Of a stretch of 40,415 bases of DNA, positions 5,241 to 36,939 are shown in pieces. Position 1 is the first letter of the stretch, and each line of letters begins with the position of its first letter. The translations under genes and the position numbers were made by a program. Below the pieces are notes generated by a model. That model had not been told where the DNA came from. It searched no databases and saw only the letters and a program-made list of their open reading frames with translations. This DNA is from a virus, in IMG/VR virus record IMGVR_UViG_3300042691_010331, positions 1 to 40,415 of that record; one strand, given 5' to 3'.

Positions 5241-5310
5241 TAGAGAGCATATAAATTTTTATATACCTAATAACACTGGTGCAGGTATTAACCTAAAAGT
5301 TGAATATTAA
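5107..5310 (+). CDS. Nested Rz1-like lipoprotein (candidate)
   Basis: This frame starts inside the holin-like gene in a different register and ends 11 bases inside the large terminase gene. It encodes 67 residues (65 from the second ATG at 5113). The start MKLRLILLLVVFLLFMGC is a lipoprotein signal with a somewhat irregular lipobox. The mature part begins TIKLPQQPPLTK and is proline-rich near its N-terminus, as in Rz1 outer-membrane spanins. It fills an otherwise unexplained 59-base gap between the holin-like gene and terL in a genome with almost no gaps. Against it: a weak ribosome-binding site, and the hydrophobic start could be a by-product of the overlapped membrane helix. Confidence 0.5.
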   Translation: MWMKLRLILLLVVFLLFMGCTIKLPQQPPLTKLELQVKPTLLNLDREHINFYIPNNTGAGINLKVEY

Positions 5311-9527: not shown

Positions 9528-10511
9528 ATGACTCAACTTACTTCAAATACTACTGCGTTTATTGACGCACAGATATATAGTAAATATATTATCGACAACT
9601 TGGAACCCTACTTGCTCCCAGAAATCTTCTGGCGCGATGTTTCAGATTTTCAAAATGGTACTACTCTCAATGTAAAAACGGTAGGTGATGTTGTACTACA
9701 GGAAGCATCTGAAGATTCTCCATTGACTTTTAGTCCAATTGATACTGGCACTGTAACGCTAAGCATCACTGAGTATGTTGGTGACGCTTGGGCTGTATCT
9801 GATGACTTGCGTAAAGATGGTAGCCAAATAGACCAATTGATGGGACTTCGCGCACGCGCATCTACTCGTGCATTAGCGCAACATCATGAATCTAAATTCT
9901 TGGCAAAAGCTGCAACCATTCAAACCAATGCTGATGTTAACTTAGTTAATGGTTCACCTCATCGTTGGGTAGCTGGTGGTTCAGGTGGTACAAACCGTGT
10001 TATGACGTTGGATGACATTGCCTATATGCAATATACTTTTGATAATGCTGATGCTCCTCAAGCAGGACGTGTCGCTATTGTCGATCCTATTGTTGCATTG
10101 GCATTAAATTCTCTGTCTAACTTAGTTAACGTATCTAATAACCCTATGTTTGAAGGTATTGTTACGTCTGGTTTCCAACAAAACCATAAGTTTGTGCGTA
10201 ACATTTTTGGATGGGATATTTGGACATCTACGCGTTTACCACGTAAAACCGCTACCGAAGCTCTTAATGCATCCTCTTACAGCTTGGCAAACGACACGGC
10301 TGAAATTGGTGACGTTGGTAACATATTTATGTGTGTTGCTGATGATAATTGCAAACCAGTTATGCACGCATGGAGAGCAATGCCTTCTGTTGAAGGATGG
10401 AGAGATCATGAATTGAGACAAGACAAGTTTCAAACTCTGTCTCGTTTTGGTTTTGCTGGCCAGCGTCTGGACACCATTGGTGTCATCTGGACTTCTCCAA
10501 GCGCATACTAA
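9528..10511 (+). CDS. Major capsid protein
   Basis: This 327-residue coat protein lies between scaffold and tail genes. It opens with an N-terminal arm (TSNTTAFIDAQIYSKYIIDN) and contains a beta-rich region (GTTLNVKTVGDVVLQEAS), a long central helix region (LMGLRARASTRALAQHHE) and a C-terminal RFGFAGQRLDTIGVIW strand, consistent with an HK97-type fold. An AAAGGA site precedes the ATG. Its codons are more G/C rich (CGT, CGC, GGT) than the neighbouring genes, as expected for a very highly expressed protein. A GC-rich hairpin follows directly after the stop. Confidence 0.92.
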   Translation: MTQLTSNTTAFIDAQIYSKYIIDNLEPYLLPEIFWRDVSDFQNGTTLNVKTVGDVVLQEASEDSPLTFSPIDTGTVTLSITEYVGDAWAVSDDLRKDGSQIDQLMGLRARASTRALAQHHESKFLAKAATIQTNADVNLVNGSPHRWVAGGSGGTNRVMTLDDIAYMQYTFDNADAPQAGRVAIVDPIVALALNSLSNLVNVSNNPMFEGIVTSGFQQNHKFVRNIFGWDIWTSTRLPRKTATEALNASSYSLANDTAEIGDVGNIFMCVADDNCKPVMHAWRAMPSVEGWRDHELRQDKFQTLSRFGFAGQRLDTIGVIWTSPSAY

Positions 10512-10519
10512 TATTAACT

Positions 10520-10537
10520 GAGCCTCTTAGGAGGCTC
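10520..10537 (+). terminator. Hairpin after the major capsid gene
   Basis: The perfect 7-bp stem GAGCCTC/GAGGCTC closes the tetraloop TTAG and is followed by TTCATAA. A copy with the loop TTCG follows the next gene. The poor T-run makes full termination unlikely. A partial terminator or a 3' stabiliser of capsid mRNA is more likely. Confidence 0.7.
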
Positions 10538-10557
10538 TTCATAAAAAGGAAATAAAA

Positions 10558-11049
10558 ATGAGTTTAGAAGCTGATGGAATCCGTGGTACTTCCAAAGTTT
10601 ACGGAGTACGTAACACAGATATGAGATATGGTGGTTTTACTGATGGTGATAGCCTGATTAAAACTATTGTATGGGATTTTAACTATGATGGCTTACCCGA
10701 TGCGGGTGCAACCAAGCATGAGTATGTAGTTCCTGCTGGAAGCACTATTGTATCATGCCATTTACGTATTGTTACAGCCTTTACGTCAACCTCAACTACA
10801 ACAGATTTGGATGTAGGTTTCCAACGTTCAAATGGTACTGAGATTGATAACAATGGTTTAATCACTGCCGCAGAAGCTACACAAACAGCTATTGCAGTAG
10901 TAGGAAGTTACATTGCTGGTGCTGGTGCATTAATTGGTAAAATCTCCGATGCTACTTATAATGCAGAACTAGTAGTTACTCCTACGGTTGCTGATTTATT
11001 AACCGGTCGTGGTCAAGTTATTCTGCAATACATCCCACCTGCTCCATAA
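10558..11049 (+). CDS. Capsid-associated beta-rich protein (decoration candidate)
   Basis: The 163-residue protein is beta-rich, with the C-terminal strand GRGQVILQYIPPAP. The centre (EYVVPAGSTIVSCHLRIVTAF) resembles phage head decoration or head-fibre proteins encoded directly after the coat gene. It has its own good ribosome-binding site (AAAAGGAAATAAAAATG) and is bracketed by two near-identical GC hairpins, so it may be expressed at a level close to the coat protein. Role inferred from place and composition. Confidence 0.6.
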   Translation: MSLEADGIRGTSKVYGVRNTDMRYGGFTDGDSLIKTIVWDFNYDGLPDAGATKHEYVVPAGSTIVSCHLRIVTAFTSTSTTTDLDVGFQRSNGTEIDNNGLITAAEATQTAIAVVGSYIAGAGALIGKISDATYNAELVVTPTVADLLTGRGQVILQYIPPAP

Positions 11050-11057
11050 TAATTATA

Positions 11058-11075
11058 GAGCCTCTTCGGAGGCTC
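11058..11075 (+). terminator. Second copy of the capsid-region hairpin
   Basis: The stem GAGCCTC/GAGGCTC is identical to the hairpin at 10520-10537, but the loop is TTCG, the very stable UUCG tetraloop in RNA. The bases after it (TTCATA, then a purine-rich ribosome site) are also similar. The change of loop with an unchanged stem suggests selection for the hairpin itself. Confidence 0.75.
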
Positions 11076-11095
11076 TTCATATAAGAGGATAAAAC

Positions 11096-11131
11096 ATGGC
11101 ATCAAGATCAAACATTGTATTTAAGGCTTAA
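11096..11131 (+). CDS. 11-codon mini-ORF before the next virion gene
   Basis: The reading frame MASRSNIVFKA has a good ribosome-binding site (AGAGGATAAAACATG) and stops two bases before the next gene. The AAGG inside its end is the only ribosome site for that gene, so translation of the peptide may drive translation of the 185-residue protein. It could also be the remnant N-terminus of a longer protein. The peptide itself may have no function. Confidence 0.35.
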   Translation: MASRSNIVFKA

Positions 11132-12832: not shown

Positions 12833-15514
12833 ATGCCAACACAAAAAGGCAATCAACCTATAGCATCATTTGTTAAAGGACTTATCACAGAAGCAACTCC
12901 CTTAACATTTCCAGAGAATGCTTCATTAGATGAAATGAACTTCGAGCTTCTACTTGATGGTAGTAGGAAGCGTCGTTTAGGATTAGATTATGAAGATGGA
13001 TACGCTCTTATTGACCCAGGGGTTACAGCAGATAGTTTAGCTGAAGCTACACAATCTTGTTTCTATTGGCCATCTCCTAATGGCAGTAGAAAGGTGGATA
13101 TTGGTGTTGTACAAGTAGGTAGATTTATTTATTTTCTTAATTTATTAACATCAAATCCATCGGCTAATGTTTTAAATGGTGGTGTTCCTATTGAGTCTAG
13201 TGTACCTAATAATAGCAAATGGCAGTTTGCTATTATTAAAGATTATTTGATTGCTGTTAATGCTTATCTTGATACTCCTTATTTGGTATCTTATGATGAT
13301 GAAGCAGATGTAATATCATATAGAACAGGTCGTATTGTAATACGGGATTTGTATGGAGTAGATGACGGATTAGCTATAACAGAAAGACCAACAACATTAT
13401 CAGATTTACATAAATATAATTTAAGAAATCAAGGATGGAGTACGAATATTGTAACCACTTGTGGTACAGATGTATTAGATTGTACATTTACTACTCTAGG
13501 AATATACCCAGGAAATTCAGACCAATGGGGTATTGGTCGTATTGGAGATTTAACATCTGCAGATGTTTATAAATATGACCCATCTATAGCAACAAGAAAT
13601 GCTGTTGATGGGGGGCAAGTGCCACAAGGTAGTTTTATTATAGACTTGTATAATAGAGGGGAATCTCGATTAGCTAATACAGGAATTACACTTCCTGCTG
13701 ATAGAGAAACCACATTTATATCCACCGTGGCAGCTTATGCTGGACGTGTTTGGTATTCAGGAATACAAGGCAAAATTGTTGATGGTGATGATAGAAGTGT
13801 CCATTTAAATAATGCTGTTTTATTCTCACAAGTATTTGACACTTATGAGTCTTTAGTAAGATGTCATCAAGCATCAGATCCAACAAGTTATACCTTTAGT
13901 GATGTAGTAGATACTGATGGTGGGATTATTCATATTATTGGTGCTGTTGATATTGTTAAACTGCTTCCTATTAAACACAGTTTGTTTGTATTTGCTAGAA
14001 ATGGTGTATGGGAAATCACAGGTGGACAGGATGGATTTACAGCTACAGTATTTCAAGTAAATAAAATATCTAGTATAGGTGTATTCTCTCCTTATAGTAT
14101 TGTAGAAGCTAATGGTGTTATTTACTTTTGGAGTGTGTCAGGTATTTATGCTATTACACCAAATCCAAATTTAAGTGGTGTATGGGATACAAATTCTGTC
14201 TCTATGACTACAATACAGAGTTTATATAATAATATTCCAGATATTATTAAACGTGGAGCTAAAGGTTTTTATGATGCTGCTGCAAATAGAGTTAGATGGT
14301 TGTTTGCATCAGATTATGGTCATGTACAAGGACAGCCTATAGATCAACCACCTTTAGTTATATATCCAAGCATAGGAACTCCAGTAGATATTGATTTTGG
14401 TAGATATACATCCTATTTCGATGTTACCGCCTTAGATAGTGAAACAGTAGTAATTACTGCTGTTACTCGTCCTGGTGCTGGTGGTGGTGCTTTCGGTGAT
14501 ATACGTGGAATTGTTTGTAAAGTGGATGTTACAGATAACACTATTACAACTATAGGTAGTCCAACTATTATAGAGAATGTTAGTAGTACCTATTTAAACA
14601 TTTCTACTGTTAAACTTGAGGCTGGTAAATTTGCTGTTATTGCCCACGAGGACACGGGTAAAGATGTATATTGTGTAGTATGCACTGTTTCTGGAACTAC
14701 TATACTTCCAACAGCTAGGCAAGCTATTTCAACAACAACAGTAGCTAATATATTTACAACAACTCCATCATCTCGATTGGAGGATAATAAATTTATATGT
14801 GGATGGGAAGGAAATACTGGCACAACATCTAGTAGATCACCCCGAACAGTTGTTGTATCTGTTAGTGGCACAACCATTGCTGCTGCAACTGAAGTAGTAT
14901 TAAATGACTATCCATCACAAGACACCCAAATTATTGCATCTAATTCATCAAATTATACTTTATATGCAAATGTTGCAGTTTCAGGTGCGCGTAAAATAGT
15001 TCCAATTTCTGTTAGTGGATCAACAATAACACCAGGTTCATTAAGTGATGCTATTACAGGGTATTATACTGGTTCGACAGAAAATACAATTGCACCATTA
15101 AAAGATACAAATATTGTTTTAGTAGCCACAGATAATTTATCTGCCTTATTTATAGCTGCTGTGGATTTATCTGCACCAGCAGCTAGCCAATTGAAAGACA
15201 CTATATCAATTAGTACAATAAGTAATTTATGGCCTGGAAGTATCCGTATTATTAGTGGTTATAATGGTAAATTCACAGTATTCTATCAAAATAGTACAGG
15301 CATGGCTTATCAAAACTTTGAATATTCTGGTGGAAGTATCACTACAGTAGGATCTGAGGTTATTATTGATGCAGCCAATACTACTTCGAGTAATTACTAC
15401 CTTCAATGCACTGATGAACCTATTGCTGGAGATGTTTATGGTGTGGTCTATCCAGCAGTGTCTGGTACACCCTATCCATTAAAATTATTCTTATATAACA
15501 CAGGGAATGCATAA
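12833..15514 (+). CDS. Tail tubular protein B (nozzle), N-terminal part with added beta domain
   Basis: The 893-residue product starts like podovirus nozzle proteins (IASFVKGLITEATPLTFPENASLDEMNFEL, with DGSRKRRLGLDYE) and keeps the pattern as far as GFYDAAANRVRWLFASDYG near residue 490. The remaining 390 residues are unlike a normal nozzle. They consist of about six repeats of 60-65 residues with hydrophobic strands and the motif VSGTTI or VSGSTI, looking like a beta-propeller. The usual nozzle C-terminus is instead encoded by the next gene, joined by TAATG. The added domain may be exposed on the tail, for instance for receptor contact. Confidence 0.8.
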   Translation: MPTQKGNQPIASFVKGLITEATPLTFPENASLDEMNFELLLDGSRKRRLGLDYEDGYALIDPGVTADSLAEATQSCFYWPSPNGSRKVDIGVVQVGRFIYFLNLLTSNPSANVLNGGVPIESSVPNNSKWQFAIIKDYLIAVNAYLDTPYLVSYDDEADVISYRTGRIVIRDLYGVDDGLAITERPTTLSDLHKYNLRNQGWSTNIVTTCGTDVLDCTFTTLGIYPGNSDQWGIGRIGDLTSADVYKYDPSIATRNAVDGGQVPQGSFIIDLYNRGESRLANTGITLPADRETTFISTVAAYAGRVWYSGIQGKIVDGDDRSVHLNNAVLFSQVFDTYESLVRCHQASDPTSYTFSDVVDTDGGIIHIIGAVDIVKLLPIKHSLFVFARNGVWEITGGQDGFTATVFQVNKISSIGVFSPYSIVEANGVIYFWSVSGIYAITPNPNLSGVWDTNSVSMTTIQSLYNNIPDIIKRGAKGFYDAAANRVRWLFASDYGHVQGQPIDQPPLVIYPSIGTPVDIDFGRYTSYFDVTALDSETVVITAVTRPGAGGGAFGDIRGIVCKVDVTDNTITTIGSPTIIENVSSTYLNISTVKLEAGKFAVIAHEDTGKDVYCVVCTVSGTTILPTARQAISTTTVANIFTTTPSSRLEDNKFICGWEGNTGTTSSRSPRTVVVSVSGTTIAAATEVVLNDYPSQDTQIIASNSSNYTLYANVAVSGARKIVPISVSGSTITPGSLSDAITGYYTGSTENTIAPLKDTNIVLVATDNLSALFIAAVDLSAPAASQLKDTISISTISNLWPGSIRIISGYNGKFTVFYQNSTGMAYQNFEYSGGSITTVGSEVIIDAANTTSSNYYLQCTDEPIAGDVYGVVYPAVSGTPYPLKLFLYNTGNA

Positions 15515-16287
15515 TGGCTTTATCAGAAATTAGCTATCCTAATAGCTATAATAGAGAACTAATATTGGATTTAACATTAAATGCTTTTAGTGTATATGAT
15601 TTCGACCATGAGAACTATCCACGTGTCCATGATTATGTTCAGCTTCCTGGTTTTATCCTCACAGAAACATCAACGAGTGTTTATGATAGTTCTGGTAATG
15701 TTGTAGTAGATGGAAGTGGTAATCCTGTTACCACTTTAGTGTTAGTTACAGGGAATAGAAGCACGGACTTGCGAAGAGAGAATTTTAAATTATTAGTAAG
15801 TGAGTCTCCTCAATTTACACTAGGGGAATATAAGGATTACACATTTACAGACTGGGTGAGTTTTGATGGCGTTGGAGTTGACTTTTCTAGTTTTTTGCTT
15901 ACTGGTTATAATTTAGCTGGTGATATGGCCAGACAAAAACAAGTTATATATTTACAAGTGTTTTGTAGACGAACAGAAGATTACTATGATATTTTAGGTA
16001 ATTTGGATCATCAGTCATCTTGTATGGTCAAAAGTGAATGGAATTGGAATAATAGTGCAGCGCAAGGCAAATGGGGAACAAGTTTCCAAGCATATAGGTT
16101 TTTATATCCGTATGCAGCCACAGGAACAACAGGTGATGCGTTTGACTACGGGGAAACAGTAGTGGTTACAAAAAATAAACTACGTGGTAGAGGCAAATCC
16201 TTATCTATTCTATTTGAATCTGCAGCAGGAAAAGATTTACACCTTTATGGATGGAATGCCCTTGTAACAATAAATGGAGAACCTTAA
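15514..16287 (+). CDS. Tail tubular protein B, C-terminal part
   Basis: The 257-residue product begins YPNSYNRELILDLTLNAFSVYDFD, which in related nozzle proteins usually follows the FYD...RVRWL segment within one chain. It ends with the usual RTEDYYD, SCMVKSEWNWNNS, VVVTKNKLRGRGKSLSILFES, GKDLHLYGW pattern. It looks like the C-terminal third of the nozzle protein turned into its own gene by the domain insertion upstream. Both chains probably assemble in the same ring. An independent minor tail protein is less likely. Confidence 0.7.
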   Translation: MALSEISYPNSYNRELILDLTLNAFSVYDFDHENYPRVHDYVQLPGFILTETSTSVYDSSGNVVVDGSGNPVTTLVLVTGNRSTDLRRENFKLLVSESPQFTLGEYKDYTFTDWVSFDGVGVDFSSFLLTGYNLAGDMARQKQVIYLQVFCRRTEDYYDILGNLDHQSSCMVKSEWNWNNSAAQGKWGTSFQAYRFLYPYAATGTTGDAFDYGETVVVTKNKLRGRGKSLSILFESAAGKDLHLYGWNALVTINGEP

Positions 16288-16580: not shown

Positions 16581-17101
16581 CCGAACTTATAGGAAGTTTA
16601 TTTACAAAGAATAAGCGCAAGAAAATACGCCGGGCACAAAGAGCAGCTTTTGCTGCTATTTCTGCCGAACAACAGAAACTATTTCAGCTAGAAACTCTAC
16701 GCGCTGATTTTGGAACAAGGCAGGAGAAAATCCAACAATTACGTGAAAGTAGAATACGAAGGGCACAAATATTAGCTAGTGCAGCCAATTCAGGGGCTAT
16801 GGATAGTAGTAGTGCTAAAGGTGGTGCATCTAGTGCTTATTCTACTGCTATAGGGAATATAGGTGTGTTAAATGCGTTCCAGAGCTACAGTAAAGCTATA
16901 GGAACATCCCAATCTGAAATAGCCAAGCAAGAAGGAATATTACAGCAACTTGGTGTTAAGATGGAGGCTCAACAGGCTAAGGCACAAATGATAGGTAGTA
17001 TTGCTGGTGCTGTTGGTACTATTGCCACACTTCCGTGGGGTGGTGGAGTTGGTAGTGTTGCTACGTCAATTGGTCGTCAAGTTGGATTAGGTGGTGGATA
17101 A
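16574..17101 (+). CDS. Internal virion protein B (gp14-like)
   Basis: This 175-residue protein begins with a very basic helix (KNKRKKIRRAQRAAFAAISAEQQ) and continues with the coiled segment QEKIQQLRESRIRRAQILASAANSG. It ends in an Ala/Gly-rich hydrophobic part (IGSIAGAVGTIATLPWGGG) able to insert into a membrane. This is the pattern of T7 gp14, the core protein that forms the outer-membrane pore at DNA ejection. It overlaps its neighbours by 7 and 1 bases. Confidence 0.75.
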   Translation: MVAELIGSLFTKNKRKKIRRAQRAAFAAISAEQQKLFQLETLRADFGTRQEKIQQLRESRIRRAQILASAANSGAMDSSSAKGGASSAYSTAIGNIGVLNAFQSYSKAIGTSQSEIAKQEGILQQLGVKMEAQQAKAQMIGSIAGAVGTIATLPWGGGVGSVATSIGRQVGLGGG

Positions 17102-20100
17102 TGTATTCGTTAGATGAAGATAAAATACCAGAGAGTTTACCAGAACGTGCCCCATTAAAACCACTACCTAATGATGTTGAAGCTAGGCAGCAAGCTTATT
17201 ATGCTGCTTATTCTGCTTCCAAGAAGTCATTAATAGGACGGGCTAGATTAACAGCACAAGAACAACAAAAAGAGTTTCTAAATTTATATGGAAAAATCCA
17301 TAATGATTTAGTTACTAATGGTGTGTCTCAGGACATGGAGGATGAGAAAACCGCTATTATTAATAGAGATGCTCAGGATGAGCAACAGGATATTATTAAT
17401 ATTGCTACAGATCCAACTATCCCTGTTGAACAAAGGGCTAATGTTTTGACCAATAAGCCGAAGAATCCTTTCAATTGGGCTGATAAATATAAAACTACCA
17501 TCACGGCTGAGAATCATGGTGTTACAAAGAAAGATGAATTAGCTCAGGATAAGAATGTAGCTACATACATTCCAAAGAACATACAGGCTGCTAAAGACGT
17601 TGAAGATTTAAAGAATGCTGCTGCTGGTTCTTTAAATATCACACATGCTGGATTTGCTGGTTCTGCCTTGCTCAATTTTATCCCTGGTAGAACAGGCGTT
17701 CTTACAGCTAATCTATATGCTGCTATGACTAACGATCATAGTTTTACTACTAGAGCTAAAAATATTGTTCTTCCTGGTAGTGCTAATAAAGAAATGGGTA
17801 AGTTATGGCAACAATGGGATGCTAAAGAAAAGAGAGAAGGGTTAATACGCATTATACGATATATGGAGTCATCCACGGCATTAGATGCTGACAAAGTGGA
17901 GATGCTATTAAAGACATTAGAAAATCCAGATCAACCTTGGTGGGAAACATCCCTTAGTAATATTAGTGGCATATTAGATGCAACCTTTGTTGGGGCTGCT
18001 GCAAAATCCCCTATAAAATCAGCTAAGGAGTTTATTAAATGGGCAACAACATATAATGCAGCAGGTGATAAAGCTGCTGTGTCATTTGTTAAAAATGTGT
18101 TCACTAAGAAGAATGTAGCTGCTGCTGGAGCAACTACTAAGGCAGCCCAAGAAGTAGCTACAGATGCAACTATTATACAAGCTGTTACTAAGAATGAGCC
18201 ACCTGTAACATCCCCTTTAGGGATTGAGGTGATTAATAATCCTGACAAGGCTTCCAAAACTATTGTAGCTAGTGTTTTAGACGACACAGGTGAAGTGGCT
18301 AAGGTTGTTACACCTGAGGGTAAAGGGCAGATAGTTGATGTTGTTCTTCCAAAGAGTGTTGATTCTGGTGAATTACAGACAATGTATCCAGATGTATTTG
18401 AGAAGATTAACACTTACGCAAAAGCTTTAAAACCTGAATCACAAATCAATCCTGCTTTGTATGATGATGCTTTTCAACAAAGTGAAATTAATACACACAT
18501 TGAGATAATAAAGAGAACACAATACCCTAGCTTGCAGCTTTCTAACACTGTTGTTGATTTCCGTTTTGGTGATACATCCTACATAAAAGCTATGTATGGA
18601 GAAACACCTAATAGAGGTTGGCTGACAGAAGGTGAGGCTATGTCTATGTTAAATAAACTGAAAGGAGATATTCCTCCTGATGTTTATAAGAATATGGAAG
18701 TGACCTATCATCCTAAGAATAATGAATATTACATTACACATAACATAGAGAAACAATTTACGCCTAATGTATTAATGGGTGATGATTATGGTGCTACATT
18801 TCAAATACCATATACTAAGAAAGAAATTAGCTTAGATGCTATTGCTAGAAATAAATACATTAATTGGATATTGCCTAGCTCAAGTAGAATGACCTCTGGC
18901 CTATCTAGCAGTGCTATAGCTACAGAAATGGGTGTAGCACAGAACATTTCAAAGTTAAATCAATATTTGAATAACTTTGTCATGAATAAGACGGATGTAT
19001 TTCCTGACTTGAATAAAGAATTGAAACTCATTCATGAGCAACAGATAAGTGGCTGGAAATCTGTGAAAGAACTGTTAGCTGACAAACCACATCTGTCTGA
19101 AGCACAGAAAAAGGATTTAGTGGAAGCCTATTATTCTGTTAAAGCATTAGGTGATACGTTCTATGACATGGCTAACAAACGTCATAGAGGTGATTTAGTG
19201 TTAGATGGACAGAAGGCTATCTATGGATCAGATGGAAGTATAAAAGGGTTTGGTAAAGATGTTCCATTTGATGAGACAACACATAAATATATATTTGACA
19301 TTGATTTAAATGCTGCTGTTGTTTTAACCAAAGAAACATTAGCTGGTGGTAAGATAGTTAAATTAAAATCACTTCTGTCAGATGCTAATGGTGATAAATG
19401 GGAATATGCTATATTACGTGGTGGTAGTAAGCTAGGAGAACTTCCTCCGAATACACTTAGTAGAATAGATAATTACATTCCATGGTATCACACTGCTGAT
19501 TTCTTTGTACAGCGTACACCATTAAAGATGCGTCTGAACGGCTTATCTGTTTCTGATGAAAGTACCCTGGCTAAATTCTCAGAACGTATAGCTGGCGCTC
19601 GTACACATGCCGATGCTGACAAGATAGTAGCAGAAATGACAGCAGAATTTGGTGACACGTATACATTTAAAACTGTATTAAGAAGCGAGAATGTTCTTGA
19701 TGAGATAGTTAATGTACATGAAGAAGCTACTAAATATGCTGCTTGGGAAAAGCACAGAGGACAGAGATTACTTAACTATGATCCTATAGATGATCCTATC
19801 AGAAGCTTACATATGATGGGTAAATCTTTAATGCAACTAGACGCATGGGAAGATTTTAATAGATATTTCAAACAACGCTTTGAGAAAACCTATGCGGACA
19901 TATTACCAGAAGGACAAATACCTAAAAATCCAGATAGGTGGACTCTACCAGATGGGAAAAATACAAAAGAAAATATAGCTTTATTAGCTGCGGGTAAGCG
20001 TGAACTAGAATGGCATAATGGTATATTCAGAAGCATGGTGGAGAGTGATAGAGCGGTGTCGTCATTCTTTCATTCTACTGCTGATGTGATGAATCAATAT

Positions 20101-21831
20101 GGCATTAAAGGTGATAAAGCTGTACGTGATTTAGCTAAACAAGGTAATGTGTTCCTACGTATTCCTAATGCTGCTGCTACACATCTCTTGCTATATAATA
20201 ACATTGCTAAACAATGGGTAGTGCAGACACAAAACATTTGGAGTTTACATGCTCTTGATCCGGCATTCATTCGCTATGGTTTGCCTAATGTACTTCCATT
20301 TATTTTTGCTACACTGGGAAAGAGTAAATATTTTCAAGGACAAGAATCTACCTTTATCAAAATATCTAAGTTTATTGGTGAAACACTTAGTGGTATTAAA
20401 GGTAAAGAGTGGGATGATATGTATAATGGCTTTGCTAACAGTGGTATGTTACAAGCTGTCGACTTAAACCAGATGGTTTTAGGTTTGAAACATCATGGTA
20501 ATTATACACTAACTCCTGAAGTACATGAGCAGATAGCTAAAGGATTAACACAAGCTATATCATTACCTGGAAACATTGCTAAAAACTTAGGCTACACTCC
20601 TGCTGAATTAACCAACTTAGCTGGTGCTTGGATATACTCATATAAACAATATCAGAAATTACATCCTGGTGTTGATATGACTAATCTACATCACATTGAA
20701 CAAGTGAAGGCTAAGGCGTTAGCTTTAACAGGAAGTATGGCGGGTAGTGCTGACACCATGAGCTACCAACGTGGTATGTGGTCACTTCTGTTTAAATTTA
20801 TGCCAATTCAGAGCAAGCAATTAGCATTAATGACAACATCCAAAGCTACCACTAAGGAAGAGAAAATACGCCTTGCTGTGGGGCAAACTATTTTATGGGG
20901 AACAGCCGGTACATTAGGAGGAACATTAATACATGATGGTGTTAATGCTTGGATGACAGACGAAGAAAAGGAAGTGTTTAACAAGTATGAGGGTGGTTTA
21001 ATTGACTTAGTATTTAATAACATTTTAGATATTACACTACGTCATGCGTTTGGTATAGATGATGAGAAGCCAACATCAATAGGATGGAGTCATTCCATGG
21101 GGCCGTTTAACAATGGCTATGGTGTTCCAGCCATTGACGTATTTTATAGTTTATACAAAACATTTACAGATCAGGAAGCTGCTAATCCCCGTATTGCTGC
21201 CGTTGGCGCTACAGGTGTTATAACTAATTTTATTACCTCTATTAGCAATAGACTAGCTATACAAGGTGAATATGATACACCACACATAGCTAATGCTATT
21301 ATAGCAGAAACTCCCACTCTGTTTAAAGCTTGGGATAATGCAGCTAAGGGTTATGTAATGTGGCAAACTGGCAAGCTTGTCTCGAAGCATGGAAATCCTA
21401 GAGATTTGGTAGCATCTCATGGTGATGCTATTGGCCGTATGGCTGGTGTATACACTAAAGAGGAATTAGATGCTTTCAAAAATATAGATGTGGAGAAAGG
21501 AAAGAAAGCAGCACAGAAAGCAATGGAAAAGGAAGTGTTCGATTACATCATGAAGAATAGAACAGATATTCTGTTTTTAGGTAGGACAGATAGAGCTGTA
21601 GAATTAGACAAGATGCTATATGTGCTTGGGCACGATGATCCAGAACTAATGTCTAAAATGCGTACCAGCATAGAAAAGAAATTATTCTATGCTAATAAAG
21701 AATTTGCTGATAGCTTACAACAACAAATAGATAATAAAATGTCTGAGGCTAAAGCTTCTTTAGACCAAGCTGAAGCAGAAGTTAGCGATGGTGCATTGAA
21801 AGAATTGATACAAACTTTAAGGAATAAATAA
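17101..21831 (+). CDS. Large internal core / DNA ejection protein
   Basis: At 1576 residues it is the longest product in the window. It corresponds in place and size to the big T7 inner-core proteins (gp15/gp16). The N-terminal 160 residues are charged helices, and alpha-helical segments alternate with Ala/Gly-rich stretches (for example AAGATTKAAQEVATDATIIQ). The last 60 residues form a charged coiled coil (NKMSEAKASLDQAEAEV). No lysozyme or transglycosylase motif is apparent here; that activity lies in the next gene. It is expected to enter the cell with the DNA and help form the periplasmic tunnel. Confidence 0.7.
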   Translation: MYSLDEDKIPESLPERAPLKPLPNDVEARQQAYYAAYSASKKSLIGRARLTAQEQQKEFLNLYGKIHNDLVTNGVSQDMEDEKTAIINRDAQDEQQDIINIATDPTIPVEQRANVLTNKPKNPFNWADKYKTTITAENHGVTKKDELAQDKNVATYIPKNIQAAKDVEDLKNAAAGSLNITHAGFAGSALLNFIPGRTGVLTANLYAAMTNDHSFTTRAKNIVLPGSANKEMGKLWQQWDAKEKREGLIRIIRYMESSTALDADKVEMLLKTLENPDQPWWETSLSNISGILDATFVGAAAKSPIKSAKEFIKWATTYNAAGDKAAVSFVKNVFTKKNVAAAGATTKAAQEVATDATIIQAVTKNEPPVTSPLGIEVINNPDKASKTIVASVLDDTGEVAKVVTPEGKGQIVDVVLPKSVDSGELQTMYPDVFEKINTYAKALKPESQINPALYDDAFQQSEINTHIEIIKRTQYPSLQLSNTVVDFRFGDTSYIKAMYGETPNRGWLTEGEAMSMLNKLKGDIPPDVYKNMEVTYHPKNNEYYITHNIEKQFTPNVLMGDDYGATFQIPYTKKEISLDAIARNKYINWILPSSSRMTSGLSSSAIATEMGVAQNISKLNQYLNNFVMNKTDVFPDLNKELKLIHEQQISGWKSVKELLADKPHLSEAQKKDLVEAYYSVKALGDTFYDMANKRHRGDLVLDGQKAIYGSDGSIKGFGKDVPFDETTHKYIFDIDLNAAVVLTKETLAGGKIVKLKSLLSDANGDKWEYAILRGGSKLGELPPNTLSRIDNYIPWYHTADFFVQRTPLKMRLNGLSVSDESTLAKFSERIAGARTHADADKIVAEMTAEFGDTYTFKTVLRSENVLDEIVNVHEEATKYAAWEKHRGQRLLNYDPIDDPIRSLHMMGKSLMQLDAWEDFNRYFKQRFEKTYADILPEGQIPKNPDRWTLPDGKNTKENIALLAAGKRELEWHNGIFRSMVESDRAVSSFFHSTADVMNQYGIKGDKAVRDLAKQGNVFLRIPNAAATHLLLYNNIAKQWVVQTQNIWSLHALDPAFIRYGLPNVLPFIFATLGKSKYFQGQESTFIKISKFIGETLSGIKGKEWDDMYNGFANSGMLQAVDLNQMVLGLKHHGNYTLTPEVHEQIAKGLTQAISLPGNIAKNLGYTPAELTNLAGAWIYSYKQYQKLHPGVDMTNLHHIEQVKAKALALTGSMAGSADTMSYQRGMWSLLFKFMPIQSKQLALMTTSKATTKEEKIRLAVGQTILWGTAGTLGGTLIHDGVNAWMTDEEKEVFNKYEGGLIDLVFNNILDITLRHAFGIDDEKPTSIGWSHSMGPFNNGYGVPAIDVFYSLYKTFTDQEAANPRIAAVGATGVITNFITSISNRLAIQGEYDTPHIANAIIAETPTLFKAWDNAAKGYVMWQTGKLVSKHGNPRDLVASHGDAIGRMAGVYTKEELDAFKNIDVEKGKKAAQKAMEKEVFDYIMKNRTDILFLGRTDRAVELDKMLYVLGHDDPELMSKMRTSIEKKLFYANKEFADSLQQQIDNKMSEAKASLDQAEAEVSDGALKELIQTLRNK

Positions 21832-21832
21832 T

Positions 21833-24136
21833 ATGCCGTTATTAGATGCAACAATACGTCCTAGTCCAATTGACCCTAGATTTGCTCTCACTGTTGCTGT
21901 TGATGAATCTGGCAAGACAGAAGCAATGTCTGAAATACCAGGGCTACAAGAGAAAGCTTATCAATATGGTGTTGCTGGTGCTACAGCACAAGCGGCAGGT
22001 GAATTAATTTCAGAAGCTCATAAGGGCTTCCAACTAGGTAAGCTTGGTGGACAGATAGAAAGAATAACAGCGCCTACTAGGGAAAGTTTAACACAAATAG
22101 CTAGTTTAGAAAATGACATTCATGGATTGAAACAACAAAAAAGATTAGCTACTTCTCATGAAGAAGTGTCAAAGATAGAGCCACAACTAGCAGCAAAAAT
22201 GCAGAGTTTAATACAAGCTAAACAGCAAGGCTTTTTAAATTCTAATGATGTTACATTACGTGTAAAAGCTGCTGTCAGAGAAGCAATAAATAATAATCCT
22301 GGTTATACAACTGCATTATCTAATTATGCCAGTGATGTTCTATGGGCATCAGGTATTCGTGAAATAGGTGATCCTACTCCTGCATTAGATGCTGCTGAAG
22401 CACAAGCTAAGAAACAAGTAAGAGATTTACAATTAAAGCAAGCACAGAGTGCGGGTGTTTTTATTGATGCCACTAAGATGCATGATGAAACTTACATGCG
22501 AGAAAGACAAGTTGATGTTCTGAATGCAATGGAAGCTAAGAATGCTATAGATGACATTATAGCCGGAAAGAAAATAGCTGATATAAATAAAGCAGCTACA
22601 ACTTCCGAACGGAATAAAAGAGCATTACAAATGCAGAATGGCGGTAGGGCTACTATTAATGATGTAGTCAATGTAACTTCTGAAGCGTTAAATAAAGCAA
22701 CTACTCCACAAGAAAAAGCTCAGATAAAACAAAATTCTATATCTACTGTTGAAGATGGACTAGACAAACTACGACAGCATTATGTTGATAGTGGCCATTC
22801 GATTTCAGAGGCGGAAAACTATACAGATAGTTTAAGAACCTATTATAACAATTTAATGAAACTGCATGATGATAGAAAGAATAATAAGATTAGTCAGGAA
22901 CAATTTGTCTCGGCTGTACATTTTGATAAAGCCATAGAGGAGGCTTATGAAACTCTAGGATTCTCTAAGGAATTTCGTAAAATAGCTGCTAAAACAAATA
23001 CAGCAGAAAAGGCTGCGTTGTTGAAAGAAAATCCTGCTCTAGCAAATCAAATAAAAAACTTCACTAAGCTGCAAGCGCATATTATTGATCCTGATACACG
23101 TGCTATGTTAGTAGAAAATATGAGGGCATTCGATAATAAACCTGCTGCTGTCCACTGGCTAACCACCTATATGCAATCTGGAAATTATGAGATGGTACAA
23201 GAAGTGACAGATGCATACACTAGGATGTTAAAGAATTTGTCTTCTCCTATGTTGTCAAGAGAGGACAGAATTAAAGGTCGGGATGTCATGGTAAGCACTC
23301 TCTCAAATTTAGCACCCGATGCACATAAATTCCTGTCATCTGAAACTAAGGCGAATGTTACAGAAGCTTTGCACGATCAAATAACTTCTGTGATGCACTT
23401 TGTTAATGGTAGTAAAAAGACATATAACTACTCAAATAAGATGGATGAGAACGGAATTATCCTCACTGTATTAGATGAACGTGGTAATGTAGATAATGAA
23501 AAAACTGCTACTGCACGTAATGTATTTGGTGTCCGTATTAACGAAGCACTAAAAGTGTATTCTCGTATTAATGGTAAATCCATGAACGAGGCTGCTAATG
23601 CCTTGCTTCCCCAGTACACTGATACATTAGGAGTTACACTACCAGAACAAACTAAACAAGGAGGTCAAGATATGTTGTCAAAAGAGTTTATTAAATCTAA
23701 GGAAGGGTTCAGAGAAAAGGCTTATAAGGATGGTGCTGGTAAATGGACTATCGGTTATGGCTTTACATCTATAGATGGCACTCCTGTTAAAGAAGGTGAT
23801 GTTATCTCTAAAGAGGATGCAGAGTTTCAATTGGATAGGATATTAGATGAGCATAAAACATTTAAAAATAAAATCACCCGTGAGCTAACTCCTTATCAAG
23901 AGGATGCGCTTGCCAGCTTTGAATACAATCTAGGGGGTGGTGTTTGGAATAAACCACGAGGTATGAAAATAATTGAAGCCATAAACAATGGTGATTTTAA
24001 CACAGCAGCAGAGTTATGGCGTACATACAATAAAATAAAGAATCCCAAAACAGGACAATATGAAGTGAGCAAAGGATTAGTTAGTAGACGAGAAGAAGAA
24101 GCTAAAATGTTGATGGCACAAAATGAAGGGGAATAA
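21833..24136 (+). CDS. Internal virion protein with C-terminal GH24 lysozyme
   Basis: The 767-residue protein has a long helical N-terminal part (residues 1-600, gp15-like, with coiled coils such as SLENDIHGLKQQKRL). A T4-type lysozyme domain follows at about 614-765. The catalytic triad E624, D633, T639 has exactly the T4 lysozyme spacing (E11, D20, T26), in EGFREKAYKDGAGKWTIGYG. As part of the virion it would open peptidoglycan at DNA entry. An internal start with a perfect ribosome site (see 23672-24136) could also release the lysozyme as a free endolysin. Confidence 0.85.
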   Translation: MPLLDATIRPSPIDPRFALTVAVDESGKTEAMSEIPGLQEKAYQYGVAGATAQAAGELISEAHKGFQLGKLGGQIERITAPTRESLTQIASLENDIHGLKQQKRLATSHEEVSKIEPQLAAKMQSLIQAKQQGFLNSNDVTLRVKAAVREAINNNPGYTTALSNYASDVLWASGIREIGDPTPALDAAEAQAKKQVRDLQLKQAQSAGVFIDATKMHDETYMRERQVDVLNAMEAKNAIDDIIAGKKIADINKAATTSERNKRALQMQNGGRATINDVVNVTSEALNKATTPQEKAQIKQNSISTVEDGLDKLRQHYVDSGHSISEAENYTDSLRTYYNNLMKLHDDRKNNKISQEQFVSAVHFDKAIEEAYETLGFSKEFRKIAAKTNTAEKAALLKENPALANQIKNFTKLQAHIIDPDTRAMLVENMRAFDNKPAAVHWLTTYMQSGNYEMVQEVTDAYTRMLKNLSSPMLSREDRIKGRDVMVSTLSNLAPDAHKFLSSETKANVTEALHDQITSVMHFVNGSKKTYNYSNKMDENGIILTVLDERGNVDNEKTATARNVFGVRINEALKVYSRINGKSMNEAANALLPQYTDTLGVTLPEQTKQGGQDMLSKEFIKSKEGFREKAYKDGAGKWTIGYGFTSIDGTPVKEGDVISKEDAEFQLDRILDEHKTFKNKITRELTPYQEDALASFEYNLGGGVWNKPRGMKIIEAINNGDFNTAAELWRTYNKIKNPKTGQYEVSKGLVSRREEEAKMLMAQNEGE
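23656..23674 (+). promoter_or_regulatory. Intragenic Shine-Dalgarno site
   Basis: AAGGAGG is followed seven bases later by an in-frame ATG. It is fully complementary to the anti-SD end of 16S rRNA. The codons it uses (CAA GGA GGT) code for Q-G-G in the linker before the lysozyme domain, where protein-level constraint is likely low. Confidence 0.7.
23672..24136 (+). CDS. Free GH24 endolysin from an internal start (candidate)
   Basis: Inside the 767-residue gene, the in-frame ATG at 23672 (Met614) is preceded by AAGGAGG with a seven-base spacer (AAGGAGGTCAAGATATG), an ideal Shine-Dalgarno sequence and the best I see in the window. The resulting 154-residue protein would start MLSKEFIKSKEG exactly at the domain boundary and contain the whole lysozyme, close to the size of free phage endolysins (146-164 residues). 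No other endolysin gene is visible. It has no signal peptide, so a holin would be needed. Internal initiation is inference from sequence. Confidence 0.65.
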   Translation: MLSKEFIKSKEGFREKAYKDGAGKWTIGYGFTSIDGTPVKEGDVISKEDAEFQLDRILDEHKTFKNKITRELTPYQEDALASFEYNLGGGVWNKPRGMKIIEAINNGDFNTAAELWRTYNKIKNPKTGQYEVSKGLVSRREEEAKMLMAQNEGE

Positions 24137-24138
24137 CA

Positions 24139-24393
24139 ATGCTAGAAATAGCAATATATGTAATGGGGTTGTTTATATCAATAACAGGATTTTATATTAA
24201 ACGGGTATATGACAAAATGGATGCCTTAGAGCAAGACTTAATTAACCATAAATTAGAAGATGCTAAAATCTATGCTACCAGGAATGAAATATCTAAAGTA
24301 GCAGATGACATTAAGGACTTAATAACTCCTATAGCTCAAAAATTAGCTAGTATAGAAGAATTTTTACGGAGTGGTGGAAAGAACACCCACTAG
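24139..24393 (+). CDS. Small membrane-anchored coiled-coil protein
   Basis: The product is 84 residues. One N-terminal transmembrane helix (IAIYVMGLFISITGFYIK, about 3-20) is followed by a helical coiled-coil segment (YDKMDALEQDLINHKLED, then ISKVADDIKDLITPIAQKLASIEEFL). Following the lysozyme gene directly, it could be an inner-membrane spanin (Rz-like), an XhlA-type accessory lysis protein, or a holin. It is the last + strand gene before the convergent terminator. Confidence 0.6.
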   Translation: MLEIAIYVMGLFISITGFYIKRVYDKMDALEQDLINHKLEDAKIYATRNEISKVADDIKDLITPIAQKLASIEEFLRSGGKNTH

Positions 24394-29876: not shown

Positions 29877-30064
29877 TTTTTTTCCTCTATATATCCACAA
29901 TCTTCAGTCCTAAATTTAGCCAACATAATTGGTGGATGGGGTGTTTTTAGTGAATTTGTAGACCATCTAACAGCATTGTTGAACTCCTCTTCTGTTAGAT
30001 TTCTATCACATGTAATATTACCACACGGTGTATCACACCAGGATCTGTCTTTATAACAAATCAT
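29873..30064 (-). CDS. Cysteine-rich small phage protein
   Basis: The product is 63 residues with five cysteines: C3, C10, C14, C19 and C56, in the pattern CYKDRSWC-x3-C-x4-C-x2-NLTEEEF. Small proteins opening with CYKDxTFC are common in phages and bacteria and probably bind a metal, but their role is unknown. It overlaps both neighbours by four bases. Confidence 0.65.
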   Translation of the reverse strand: MICYKDRSWCDTPCGNITCDRNLTEEEFNNAVRWSTNSLKTPHPPIMLAKFRTEDCGYIEEKK

Positions 30065-30249
30065 GCTTGTTCCTTTAATAATTCAGGGAGGACATAAACG
30101 TAGCCATCCCAATTTTCCACACCATATGCTTCGAGTGTTTTTAAATTATGCTCTGCACTTATTAGTCTATTGTACTCTTCTCTAGAAATGGTAACATAAT
30201 CATCAGACATATAGTCCCATTCGTCTGTAGTTGTCTCACATTTAAACAT
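30061..30249 (-). CDS. Small acidic unknown protein
   Basis: The product is 62 residues from the ATG at 30249, which has AAAGGA eight bases upstream (an ATG three codons earlier is too close to it). The segment VTISREEYNRLISAEHNLKTLEAYGVENWDGY is a helix pair typical of small phage proteins with an SREEY start. No function known. Confidence 0.6.
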   Translation of the reverse strand: MFKCETTTDEWDYMSDDYVTISREEYNRLISAEHNLKTLEAYGVENWDGYVYVLPELLKEQA

Positions 30250-30610
30250 TTTTAACATCCTTTAACTTAGGCATCCACCATTTTTTATGTTGGTTATAGT
30301 ATAACCTCATTGCAGTATACATCTCAGTTGAGTACCTATGCTGAAACCATGCCCATGTTCCTTCATTAACATTTGTCATAGCATCATCTGAATAGTAGAA
30401 ATTAGTAATGCTATCATATAAATCAAGTAGTAGAACGTGTCTATCCGCGTGAAAATACTCTGAAAGAATCCATTGAAACTGCCACCAGCTAGGATCTATC
30501 ATTAAATCGTAAACATCATTAATAAAGTAATCTAATATACGACATTTTTGTTCAGCCCAAACAAAAACCGGTTTTACTGGAGATTGCCACAATTCTTCAT
30601 TCTTCATCAT
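30242..30610 (-). CDS. Unknown tryptophan-rich protein
   Basis: The product is about 122 residues from the ATG at 30610, five bases after GAGGA (TTG and further ATG codons lie nearby, so the start is uncertain by one codon). Aromatic residues are unusually frequent (PSWWQFQWILSEYFHADRH, GTWAWFQHRYS, KKWWMPK). No signal peptide or membrane helix. No family recognised. Confidence 0.55.
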   Translation of the reverse strand: MMKNEELWQSPVKPVFVWAEQKCRILDYFINDVYDLMIDPSWWQFQWILSEYFHADRHVLLLDLYDSITNFYYSDDAMTNVNEGTWAWFQHRYSTEMYTAMRLYYNQHKKWWMPKLKDVKNV

Positions 30611-34013: not shown

Positions 34014-34523
34014 TTATAATGGTATGTCGTCCATTATTGATGAAATATCGTTAGATATTTCCTGTTTTTCATCTAAAACCCAAGCTGTAAATTGTGCTGC
34101 CAAGTTCATAACTTCAAATTGGTCTGCAGATTTCTTACCCTGTAGTTCCAGTAGTTTTAACGCATTTGTTAAACTACTCTGACGAACAATTACCTTCTGC
34201 CTTACGGCACGTTCTTCCCTATCTTCCCATCTACCATCATCATAAGTTTTCTTAGCTGCTGGTGTGGCATCTTTTCTAATACCTTTAACATTCCAATACT
34301 CACCTTCTTTTTCTTTAGTGATAACAATGTTATCCCCTGGAGACAATTCTGCGAGAGCATTCTTTAATGCTGCATTATATTTTAATGCATTGCTGTGAAA
34401 CACTTGTTTCTGTTCACCCTTATCAGAATTGTATACAAGAACAGCACCTTTATATGTGCTTCCATCTTGTTTTTCAATTGTTTCATTCTGTTTAACACTA
34501 ACCACTATTCCTTTAATTTCCAT
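34014..34523 (-). CDS. Single-stranded DNA-binding protein
   Basis: The 169-residue protein has an OB-fold-like N-terminal domain (EIKGIVVSVKQNETIEKQDGSTYKGAVLVY, GDNIVITKEKEGEYWNVKGI; residues 2-84). A charged linker, a helical segment (QSSLTNALKLLELQG) and an acidic tail ending SSIMDDIPL follow. The DDIP-type tail is the usual docking tip of phage and bacterial SSBs for replication partners. It overlaps the polymerase palm gene by 11 bases. Confidence 0.8.
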   Translation of the reverse strand: MEIKGIVVSVKQNETIEKQDGSTYKGAVLVYNSDKGEQKQVFHSNALKYNAALKNALAELSPGDNIVITKEKEGEYWNVKGIRKDATPAAKKTYDDGRWEDREERAVRQKVIVRQSSLTNALKLLELQGKKSADQFEVMNLAAQFTAWVLDEKQEISNDISSIMDDIPL

Positions 34524-35223
34524 ATTTAATTTCCTTTAAATTATACATATCATCACCAACACTTATTTCAATGTTTATTTTTAAATCAAATTTGACATTG
34601 AAAATATTATTGATATTGCTCGGTAAGTCAATAAATACATTATTACATAAATCGACGCACTTGTCAACGTCCCTCGTATCAATATCGAAAACAATACTAT
34701 CATGCACAGTGCTAACCAAACAGCCTCTAATAGAAGCATTCTGCCACCTCCTAAATAAACTACACCTTGCTATGGATACAATGTCTGCTCCATAGCCTTG
34801 CACGGGGTAATTTTTTATCTGGGTTAATGGTAGTTTACTACCACTCACCCTATCCCATTTATACATTCTACCAAAGGGAGAGACATACATCCCTGTTTTT
34901 AATACTTCATTTGCTATTTGATTGTGCCATCTAGCAATGCCTACATATTTTTCATAATACTTATCTATCACCTTTTTCCAATAGTTCTCACTGCGAGAGA
35001 TAAATGTAAAATCAGGGTCATTAGCGAATGAATACTCTAGTGCCCCATACAATAATTTAAATTTAAATATCTTGGCTGTTATCCTGTCCGGCAAGCCAAA
35101 CTTAGCTTGATTATCTGAATGTATATCAGCACCATTATTTAACTCATTATATAACACAGGGTCTTTTGATAAGAATGCAGCGCATACTACTTCTAAACCC
35201 TTTACGTCAATATTCACTATCAT
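34513..35223 (-). CDS. DNA polymerase family A, palm/fingers subunit
   Basis: The product has 236 residues from the ATG at 35223. It begins right at motif A: NIDVKGLEVVCAAFLS, with catalytic D6 and E11. Motif B is RITAKIFKFKLLYG (R47, K51, F55, Y59; exact family spacing). The motif C site is H174-D175-S176 (TVHDSIVFD), with S where E. coli Pol I has E. YPVQGYGADIVSIA lies between. It is only the C-terminal third of a T7-type polymerase and needs the thumb part from the upstream gene. A TTG six codons upstream is an alternative start. Confidence 0.9.
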   Translation of the reverse strand: MIVNIDVKGLEVVCAAFLSKDPVLYNELNNGADIHSDNQAKFGLPDRITAKIFKFKLLYGALEYSFANDPDFTFISRSENYWKKVIDKYYEKYVGIARWHNQIANEVLKTGMYVSPFGRMYKWDRVSGSKLPLTQIKNYPVQGYGADIVSIARCSLFRRWQNASIRGCLVSTVHDSIVFDIDTRDVDKCVDLCNNVFIDLPSNINNIFNVKFDLKINIEISVGDDMYNLKEIKYGN

Positions 35224-35365
35224 TTTCGTCTTTATGACCAAACCATTCTGTGGCTTCTCCAGATTCTATGTAACAACCTAGAGGATTAATATCACAATTG
35301 GGGTATGCCGGGCATCCTAAATGCGTTGGTTTGTAATTATTTTCAAAATAAACTACATCATCCAT
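35207..35365 (-). CDS. 52-residue insert protein between polymerase parts
   Basis: The product starts at an ATG overlapping the stop of the polymerase thumb gene (TATGGATGA), eight bases after GGAG, and overlaps the palm gene by 17. It is acidic, with three cysteines (HLGCPAYPNCDINPLGCYIESG). It sits exactly where the chain of a normal polymerase would continue from the thumb into motif A. It could be a metal-binding linker partner or an unrelated small protein inserted into the gene. Confidence 0.65.
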   Translation of the reverse strand: MDDVVYFENNYKPTHLGCPAYPNCDINPLGCYIESGEATEWFGHKDENDSEY

Positions 35366-36056
35366 ATCTTGTCTCCATATATTTTTTTGTTTGTTTATCA
35401 GCATTCTGCCCATTCGGTTTGCTGCTAGATAATCTTCCTGTTATAGCCACACATTGATTATAACTTGGATATAACATATTATGTTCCCAATTCATTTTCT
35501 CAATCAGTTTAGCATATCCTTCCAGGTAAGTGCCTCTTAATTTCTCAAGTTTATTATATTCCAATAGAAGCTTTATGATTTCCTTCCCCTTTCCTTTAGC
35601 TTTTAAACTACGTAGAACAGGCTCATTTACTTCCCATAAGCTATGTTCAGAGTGTGTACCATCTTCTATTCTTTTCTTTGACTTAGCTGTTTCTGTTCTA
35701 GGTAGTGGATCAACCAATCTGTTGTAGTAATGGGACAATGTTTTTTTCTTAAACTTAACTTCACCTTTTCTATTCCCTGTTTTATAATGACCGACTGGCA
35801 CATAAATATCTTCTGTAATAACACCACCATATAAAATGGCACTAACATCATCGTTAGAACTAAGATTAACATTACTGTTACCAACAAGTAAATAAATGTT
35901 ACATAAAATGCTGTCAATATCTTCAGATAGTTTCTTAGCATGTTCTAATGCCTTTTCTGTATTAAAATAAATACCACTACGTTCCATCTCCAACAAGCAT
36001 AACAAATCATAACATTGTATTTTAAATAGTTTGTATAAATTCTCAGAATGAGTCAT
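35358..36056 (-). CDS. DNA polymerase family A, thumb subunit
   Basis: The 232-residue product corresponds to the segment between the exonuclease and motif A of T7-type polymerases. It opens with LLCLLEMERSGIYFNTEKA (start of the thumb) and has KGKGKEIIKLLLEYNKLEKLRGTYLEGY. It ends with the DNA-contact motif ITGRLSSSKPNGQN (about residues 205-218), then METRYG and a stop. The rest of the polymerase is encoded downstream after a small insert gene. No strong ribosome site precedes the ATG. Confidence 0.88.
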   Translation of the reverse strand: MTHSENLYKLFKIQCYDLLCLLEMERSGIYFNTEKALEHAKKLSEDIDSILCNIYLLVGNSNVNLSSNDDVSAILYGGVITEDIYVPVGHYKTGNRKGEVKFKKKTLSHYYNRLVDPLPRTETAKSKKRIEDGTHSEHSLWEVNEPVLRSLKAKGKGKEIIKLLLEYNKLEKLRGTYLEGYAKLIEKMNWEHNMLYPSYNQCVAITGRLSSSKPNGQNADKQTKKYMETRYG

Positions 36057-36429: not shown

Positions 36430-36939
36430 TTAGAATACTCCAAATTGTTTGGCTTGTTCTTTAAATACACTTTCCGTTCCTATCAAATCATAGTCAAGGT
36501 AGTCCTTGACTATGTGCTTAGGTATGTTCTCTGTGCTAATACCTTTATCCCAATATTCTGTTTTAACAACGTCTAATTTAACAGGATGCCCATACTTAAT
36601 TAGTGCATCATTCAAACTAGGATAGGGATTTCTCTGACACTCTACCATAAATTCAAATATCTGACAATCCCATATTCTTTTTTTAGCACTGTAGAACTCT
36701 GATAAATCTATTCCAACATTTAACAGCCAATGCAAATCAAACTTAATGTTAAACCCCACTAACAAATCACATTGATTTAATTGTGCTTGTGTATATTCTG
36801 CAAAATCCTGGTCAAGCCAGAACACCTCCGGTGTTTCATCCAGCCATTTTAAACCTATACAAACAAGTTTATTTGCCCTGTCTGCCCAATGGCCTTTGTT
36901 CGATGTGGTTGTTTCAACATCAATAGTTAGTATTTTCAT
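36430..36939 (-). CDS. 3'-5' proofreading exonuclease subunit of the DNA polymerase
   Basis: The 169-residue protein has the three DnaQ-type motifs: D7-x-E9 in TIDVETT, N64-x3-D68 in VGFNIKFDLHWL, and Y147-x3-D151 in DYLDYDLIGTESVF. It matches the N-terminal domain of T7-type family A polymerases but ends just after motif III. It would give proofreading when bound to the other polymerase polypeptides. It starts with ATGA overlap on a membrane micropeptide gene. Confidence 0.88.
   Translation of the reverse strand: MKILTIDVETTTSNKGHWADRANKLVCIGLKWLDETPEVFWLDQDFAEYTQAQLNQCDLLVGFNIKFDLHWLLNVGIDLSEFYSAKKRIWDCQIFEFMVECQRNPYPSLNDALIKYGHPVKLDVVKTEYWDKGISTENIPKHIVKDYLDYDLIGTESVFKEQAKQFGVF

Follow-up and report, generated by a model that had tools for sequence, protein, structure and literature searches.

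A single gene of this podovirus is likely to yield two products from two in-frame starts, namely a virion-type protein of 767 amino acids and a free endolysin of 154 amino acids. The gene would probably supply the lysozyme for entry as well as that for exit; initiation at the internal ATG, the virion location of the long form and both enzymatic roles we infer from sequence. The features concerned are as follows, with positions given in the window, by which is meant the whole stretch of 40,415 bases that was analysed.

17101-21831, + strand: homologue of an internal virion protein, 1576 aa, directly 5′ of the core gene (phrog_12003, internal virion protein, E-value 3.1e-21)
21833-24136, + strand: internal-virion-type (core) protein of 767 aa in a single open frame, with a C-terminal GH24 lysozyme domain
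23658-23664, + strand: AAGGAGG Shine-Dalgarno-like (SD) site, 7 nt 5′ of the internal ATG (duplex -12.1 kcal/mol)
23672-24136, + strand: nested in-frame ORF of 154 aa, a predicted free GH24 endolysin, whose Met aligns with the start of the PA11 free endolysin
23693-24100, + strand: GH24 lysozyme domain (PF00959; profile positions 1-125 of 125, E-value 2.7e-28), the sole match in the record

Translation from 21833 would give the internal virion (ejection-type) protein, which would enter the particle at full length, its C-terminal GH24 domain cutting peptidoglycan at entry and so aiding the genome in crossing the wall. Translation from the AAGGAGGT-ATG at 23672 would give the free GH24 endolysin, which would accumulate in the cytoplasm until let out for exit by a separate holin, for which the candidate lies at 4941-5240.

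The virus record has its late genes on the + strand and its early genes on the - strand. With portal identities of 61% to MEP401, 50% to PA11 and 48% to ICP2, it is a podovirus of the Zobellviridae, and it encodes RNR, ThyX, MazG-like and PhoH-like genes. In comparison with MEP401 the primase end of the early region is apparently absent, and an ORF runs off the right end, so the record is probably incomplete and missing part of its early region. A DNA polymerase match is spread over three - strand ORFs between 34513 and 36939 (36430-36939, 35358-36056 and 34513-35241), with a 133-aa ORF between two of them; in MEP401, too, the polymerase annotation covers two genes, separated by a small ORF. 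This arrangement may represent a split gene, an intervening element or frameshifts. The tail appendage family phrog_8094 is also split, over two adjacent + strand ORFs at 12833-16287, whose products of 893 and 257 aa match the family at its beginning and its end, respectively. A hairpin-like stretch with GAGCCTCTT.GGAGGCTC occurs on the + strand in two copies (77% alike), one after the capsid gene and the other after the next gene (10509-10560 and 11047-11098), these being possible terminators or processing sites. A 65-aa protein (30061-30258, - strand) matches phrog_6234, annotated as a host RecBCD nuclease inhibitor (E-value 8.2e-14).

The anatomy of the core gene is as the initial annotation had described it. 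The site AAGGAGGT stands 7 nt before an ATG at 23672-23674, which is in frame with the start of the gene (23672-21833 = 1839 = 3 x 613) and encodes residue 614. The GH24 domain (PF00959) spans aa 621-756 of the 767-residue protein (E-value 9.7e-26) and covers the full profile (1-125) at 91 bits, against a curated cut-off of 22.3, so the ATG, which has its own RBS, lies just outside the domain, at the border where it had been placed. The short ORF has the claimed 154 residues and an intact E-D-T set, with E11, D20 and T26 (numbered from the internal Met) invariant in an alignment of four sequences; we take the Glu-Asp-Thr catalytic triad of GH24 from T4 lysozyme. In the alignment the free endolysin of the Zobellviridae phage PA11 begins at the position of the internal Met. 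Residues 6-147 of the short product are covered by the best-matching solved lysozyme, and the product is predicted to be a whole lysozyme. In a structure model of the whole protein, which is of low confidence (mean pLDDT 62.1), the linker at aa 606-628 falls below a pLDDT of 50 and is predicted to be disordered, while the first lysozyme helix begins at residue 614, the internal Met itself.

The long form appears to be an internal-virion-type protein by its place and its relatives, since the gene follows the 1576-aa internal virion protein homologue as do the corresponding genes in other Zobellviridae, and it is from this synteny that a location in the virion is proposed. Its hydropathy profile has no segment over the threshold. 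A near-DNA search and a whole-protein single-sequence search were unproductive, and tblastn of the core part returned no match in named phages.

The internal ribosome site is predicted to be a strong one. Its computed anti-SD duplex (-12.1 kcal/mol) exceeds that of each of 39 gene starts tested, the best of these being the portal gene with -10.6 kcal/mol, while the capsid gene, whose SD is AAGGA, has -5.6. It is the best of 187 in-frame internal ATGs, none of the other 186 reaching an SD match of 6 nt, and the local structure is open, with a mean unpaired probability of 0.66 round the start; among 77 internal ATGs from five large genes, four equal or surpass it in openness. In the ORFs of the window, L087, L088 and L089 (L087 and the relative L006 are the same contig), 18,622 in-frame codons include 576 ATG or GTG, three of them with an SD match of at least 7; two of the three lie in GH24 linkers, those of the window and L087, and the third is also in L087. 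By estimate, about 1.1% of in-frame 12-codon stretches in these genomes have an ATG or GTG with an SD match of at least 5.

It could be argued that nothing is initiated at the SD-like stretch, which would instead make translation pause between the two domains or have arisen by chance from the QGG linker. The bare motif AAGGAGG is indeed at chance level (3 in the window, 3.21 expected) and was dropped as evidence, and with the peptide QGG fixed, 20.8% of 1000 synonymous reshuffles of the core gene had an SD match of at least 7 at this position. Reshuffling of 21 late genes produced at least one internal ATG or GTG with such a match somewhere in 82 of 200 trials. By these controls the presence of such a site somewhere is unremarkable, and what is unusual is its place at the domain border together with the sites in all four fused linkers (below). 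A pause site, however, needs no ATG at initiation spacing, the site is exactly where a free endolysin would start, and the relatives L088 and L089 have an SD-like site and ATG with other residues, so that a pause or chance origin is very improbable.

Three relatives have the same fusion, namely L006 (62% identity over the whole protein), L088 (44%) and L089 (40%, the protein being cut at the contig end). A sequencing error fusing two genes was ruled out, as the fusion is uninterrupted in L006 and L088 and, as far as its contig reaches, in L089. All four linkers have a start codon after an SD-like stretch, these being AAGGAGG and ATG in the window, AAGGAGG and GTG at 4 nt in L006, and only AAGGA (-5.6) with ATG in L088 and L089. 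Conservation of the site in relatives, which had been proposed as a check, thus holds for the presence of a start codon with an SD-like site in four of four linkers, but not for SD strength, which varies. The linker residues differ, two of the linkers having QGG and the other two PKE; as the linkers fall into homologous pairs, they represent perhaps two independent cases and not four. A DNA pattern scan gave 22 contigs, three of which were the known records of L006, L088 and L089, and 80 loci were obtained when closer lysozymes were sought, all at 40% identity or less. Of 80 related viral GH24 loci tallied for N-terminal length, one was open at its 5′ end and was left out; in none of the other 79 do more than 250 aa precede the domain. 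One comparison of relatives covered 50 loci, 42 of them from one 80-locus relative set, and left out L012, L017, L030, L033, L040, L049, L060, L075, L081 and L085.

Other members of the family keep the endolysin elsewhere. PA11 has a free GH24 gene that overlaps the core gene at its end, with AGGAGG (start GTG) inside the core frame; CVT22, Asterion and Pecta have a free GH24 gene one gene further on from the core. The core proteins of PA11, CVT22, Asterion, Pecta, P12053L and CW02 gave no hydrolase match, and an entry lysozyme on this protein is therefore not a general feature of the Zobellviridae. The lytic gene of MEP401 (Phage_lysozyme2) is also a separate one, as is that of the Manatee Spring phage (SLT), directly after the core; the latter gene (L003, 12569-13807, - strand) joins the SLT lytic domain to an ART-PolyVal ADP-ribosyltransferase domain. 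The environmental relatives G006 and G011 have, before the terminase, the order small membrane protein, GH24, Rz/Rz1-like pair and TerL, and in G023 and G016 GH24 also precedes TerL. There was no PF00959 match in ICP2, SIO1, P12053L, CW02, VpV262 or 177E37-1. The core of G006 ends in a region resembling a 'tail injection transglycosylase' (phrog_7182, E-value 3.4e-11; L231, 6533-8794, - strand) where the window has GH24. The C-terminal hydrolase of the core protein thus appears to be exchangeable, and the lysozyme module occupies the place that in relatives is taken by a different virion hydrolase-like region, as in G006, or by a free endolysin adjoining the core, as in PA11, CVT22, Asterion and Pecta.

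The PA11 arrangement bears on the main rival to the dual-product gene, namely that the internal SD and ATG are a relic of a free endolysin fused in frame, with only the full-length protein being made and either doing both jobs or being cleaved to free the lysozyme. In PA11 the two genes are unfused and the endolysin SD lies inside the end of the core gene, as such an origin would have it, but the core proteins of PA11 and the window are at best very weakly related (profile comparison over 71 columns, probability 27%). The GTG at short spacing in L006 and the weaker SD of L088 and L089 resemble decay, and the predicted disorder of the linker in the low-confidence model makes cleavage conceivable. 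On the other hand, the window and L006 retain a full-strength SD, and start codons with SD-like sites are kept in linkers of different residues, which leaves a relic start unlikely.

A lysis-like cluster was identified before the terminase. Its features, together with the gene following the core, are listed below.

4709-4951, + strand: lipoprotein-like protein of 80 aa in the cluster 4709-5310, with a signal segment ending LLGC (homologues in L009 and L225)
4941-5240, + strand: membrane protein of 99 aa, a candidate holin judged solely by its hydropathy and position (homologues in L225, 81%, and L009, 77%)
5107-5310, + strand: lipoprotein-like protein of 67 aa overlapping its neighbours, Rz1/o-spanin-like by layout, with a segment ending FMGC and then PQQPP (homologues in L225 and L009)
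24139-24393, + strand: protein of 84 aa with one N-terminal membrane segment by hydropathy, next after the core (homologue in L006, 47%)

The cluster at 4709-5310 is compact, with overlapping genes, and lies directly 5′ of the terminase; among the loci compared, homologues were present only in L225, which is the record of L089, and in L009. The order in these two and the window is HNH, lipoprotein, membrane protein, Rz1-like lipoprotein and TerL. The three ORFs gave no PHROG match, the candidate holin no family match over the curated cut-off, and tblastn of the candidate holin and of the 84-aa protein no match in named phages. The 84-aa protein was itself considered as a holin and dropped, a homologue being present also after the core gene of G006, which has a full lysis cassette of its own. 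The ORF at 3678-4166 (162 aa) was likewise considered as a hidden endolysin and dropped; it contains PSGG-type repeats, matches no family and has a homologue in L225.

The statement in the initial annotation that no other endolysin is visible agrees with the scan of the window, in which 56 ORFs were compared with PHROGs and/or Pfam and no wall hydrolase was found besides the core protein; these are from the 100 ORFs of 60 aa or more, the other 44 being mostly antisense or overlapping. The record has one GH24. That no recognisable endolysin is seen here is meaningful because a holin/spanin-like cluster, not mentioned in the initial annotation, precedes the terminase. GH24 is absent from this cluster in all three clade members showing it (the window, L225 and L009), and in the two records where both places are visible, those of the window and L089, the fused lysozyme goes with an empty endolysin place; on the contigs of L006 and L088 that place is not visible.

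These observations also bear on a role in entry only, in which GH24 would be a virion lysozyme and lysis would be due to an endolysin outside the record or one that the profiles do not recognise, perhaps in 4709-5310. The record appears to lack part of the early region, and a distant endolysin may sit in the missing primase end; G006 has both a hydrolase-like core region and a free endolysin, and no PHROG was matched by the ORFs at 4709-5310. However, the free GH24 genes of the relatives examined lie near the core or before the terminase, and both places are present in the window with none there, while the proteins of 4709-5310 are 67-99 aa and membrane- or lipoprotein-like. A role in entry only is accordingly judged improbable.

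The lysozyme module has a history apart from that of the core, judging by sequence identities. The core of the window is 64% identical to that of L006 and 37% to that of L088, whereas its lysozyme is 56% identical to that of L006 and 69% to that of L088; a closer relation of the window to L006 receives a bootstrap of 1.000 for the core and of 0.001 for the lysozyme. The cores of L088 and L089 are 36% identical and the 50 lysozyme residues present in both are identical, although L089 ends within the lysozyme and contig ends can be chimeric. At the DNA level the two have an identity of about 0.6 in the core, which increases to 0.92 over the 200 bases starting 62 bases before the ATG. Exchange of this kind would be expected of an endolysin gene that carries its RBS with it, but the domain of a protein could be swapped likewise.

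The initial annotation had proposed that one gene could supply both lysozymes. Anatomy and relatives favour such a dual product; set against this are the incomplete early end of the record, the weak SD in two of four linkers and the close GTG of L006. For the clade as a whole, the chances are about even that a GH24 module with its own RBS was captured by an internal virion protein gene, that the dedicated endolysin is gone from the lysis cluster, that the nested gene feeds entry and exit, and that the module still moves between divergent cores like a free endolysin gene.

In-frame internal starts in endolysin genes are known. The lysA gene of phage Ms6 gives two polypeptides from one gene in this manner (PMC3111421), and such starts have been surveyed in phages of Gram-positive hosts and mycobacteria (PMC9430671). 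In that survey, internal starts are considered unlikely in phages of Gram-negative hosts because their endolysins are mostly single globular domains, and proteins with tail domains were filtered out; of the seven cases described earlier, five have a short form that is a wall-binding domain only (PMC9430671). A recent data set of lytic proteins also excluded virion-associated lysins (PMC12596118). The present gene resembles the two-polypeptide endolysins in having one lysis-enzyme gene with an in-frame internal RBS and start, a shared stop and two products, which are predicted here; it differs in that the long form there is an endolysin and here virion-type, and the short form here is predicted to be a whole catalytic endolysin. 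As the 767-aa protein is internal-virion-type and not itself an endolysin, the gene would work like internal-start endolysin genes but is not a strict member of that group.

Cobaviruses, which are classed in the Zobellviridae, are described as having diverse endolysins next to internal virion genes, the endolysin type being exchangeable (PMC6775973). The window shares with the cassettes of these phages and of PA11, CVT22, Pecta and Asterion the order of internal virion genes and then lysozyme, but in the latter four the endolysin is separate and the core has no hydrolase match, whereas here it is fused to the core gene. Like the virion-associated lysins of podoviruses, the long form joins a virion-type protein to a domain that would cut peptidoglycan, the transglycosylase-like region of G006 being an example in the same place, but here the domain is of an endolysin type (GH24) with its own RBS and start codon. 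PRD1 P15 and phi6 P5 are enzymes serving entry and exit as one protein, and T7 4A/4B and lambda C/Nu3 are nested in-frame phage genes with two products per frame. All are alike to the present case in having one gene for two steps or two products from one frame, but to our knowledge none joins a virion protein with a nested free endolysin. Searches of an open-licence library yielded no description of a nested endolysin in a virion protein gene. The claim that the arrangement is little described thus needs to be narrowed, as it applies to the coupling to a virion-type protein and not to in-frame internal starts in endolysin genes.

Phages are usually described with two wall-cutting activities, a small particle-borne dose for entry and a large soluble dose for exit. 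If the proposal is correct, surveys that discard lysins with virion-type domains can miss real endolysins. The gene would make both activities, the soluble dose being set by the internal ribosome site, and it would show how the two may be merged and split again by the loss or gain of one stop codon.
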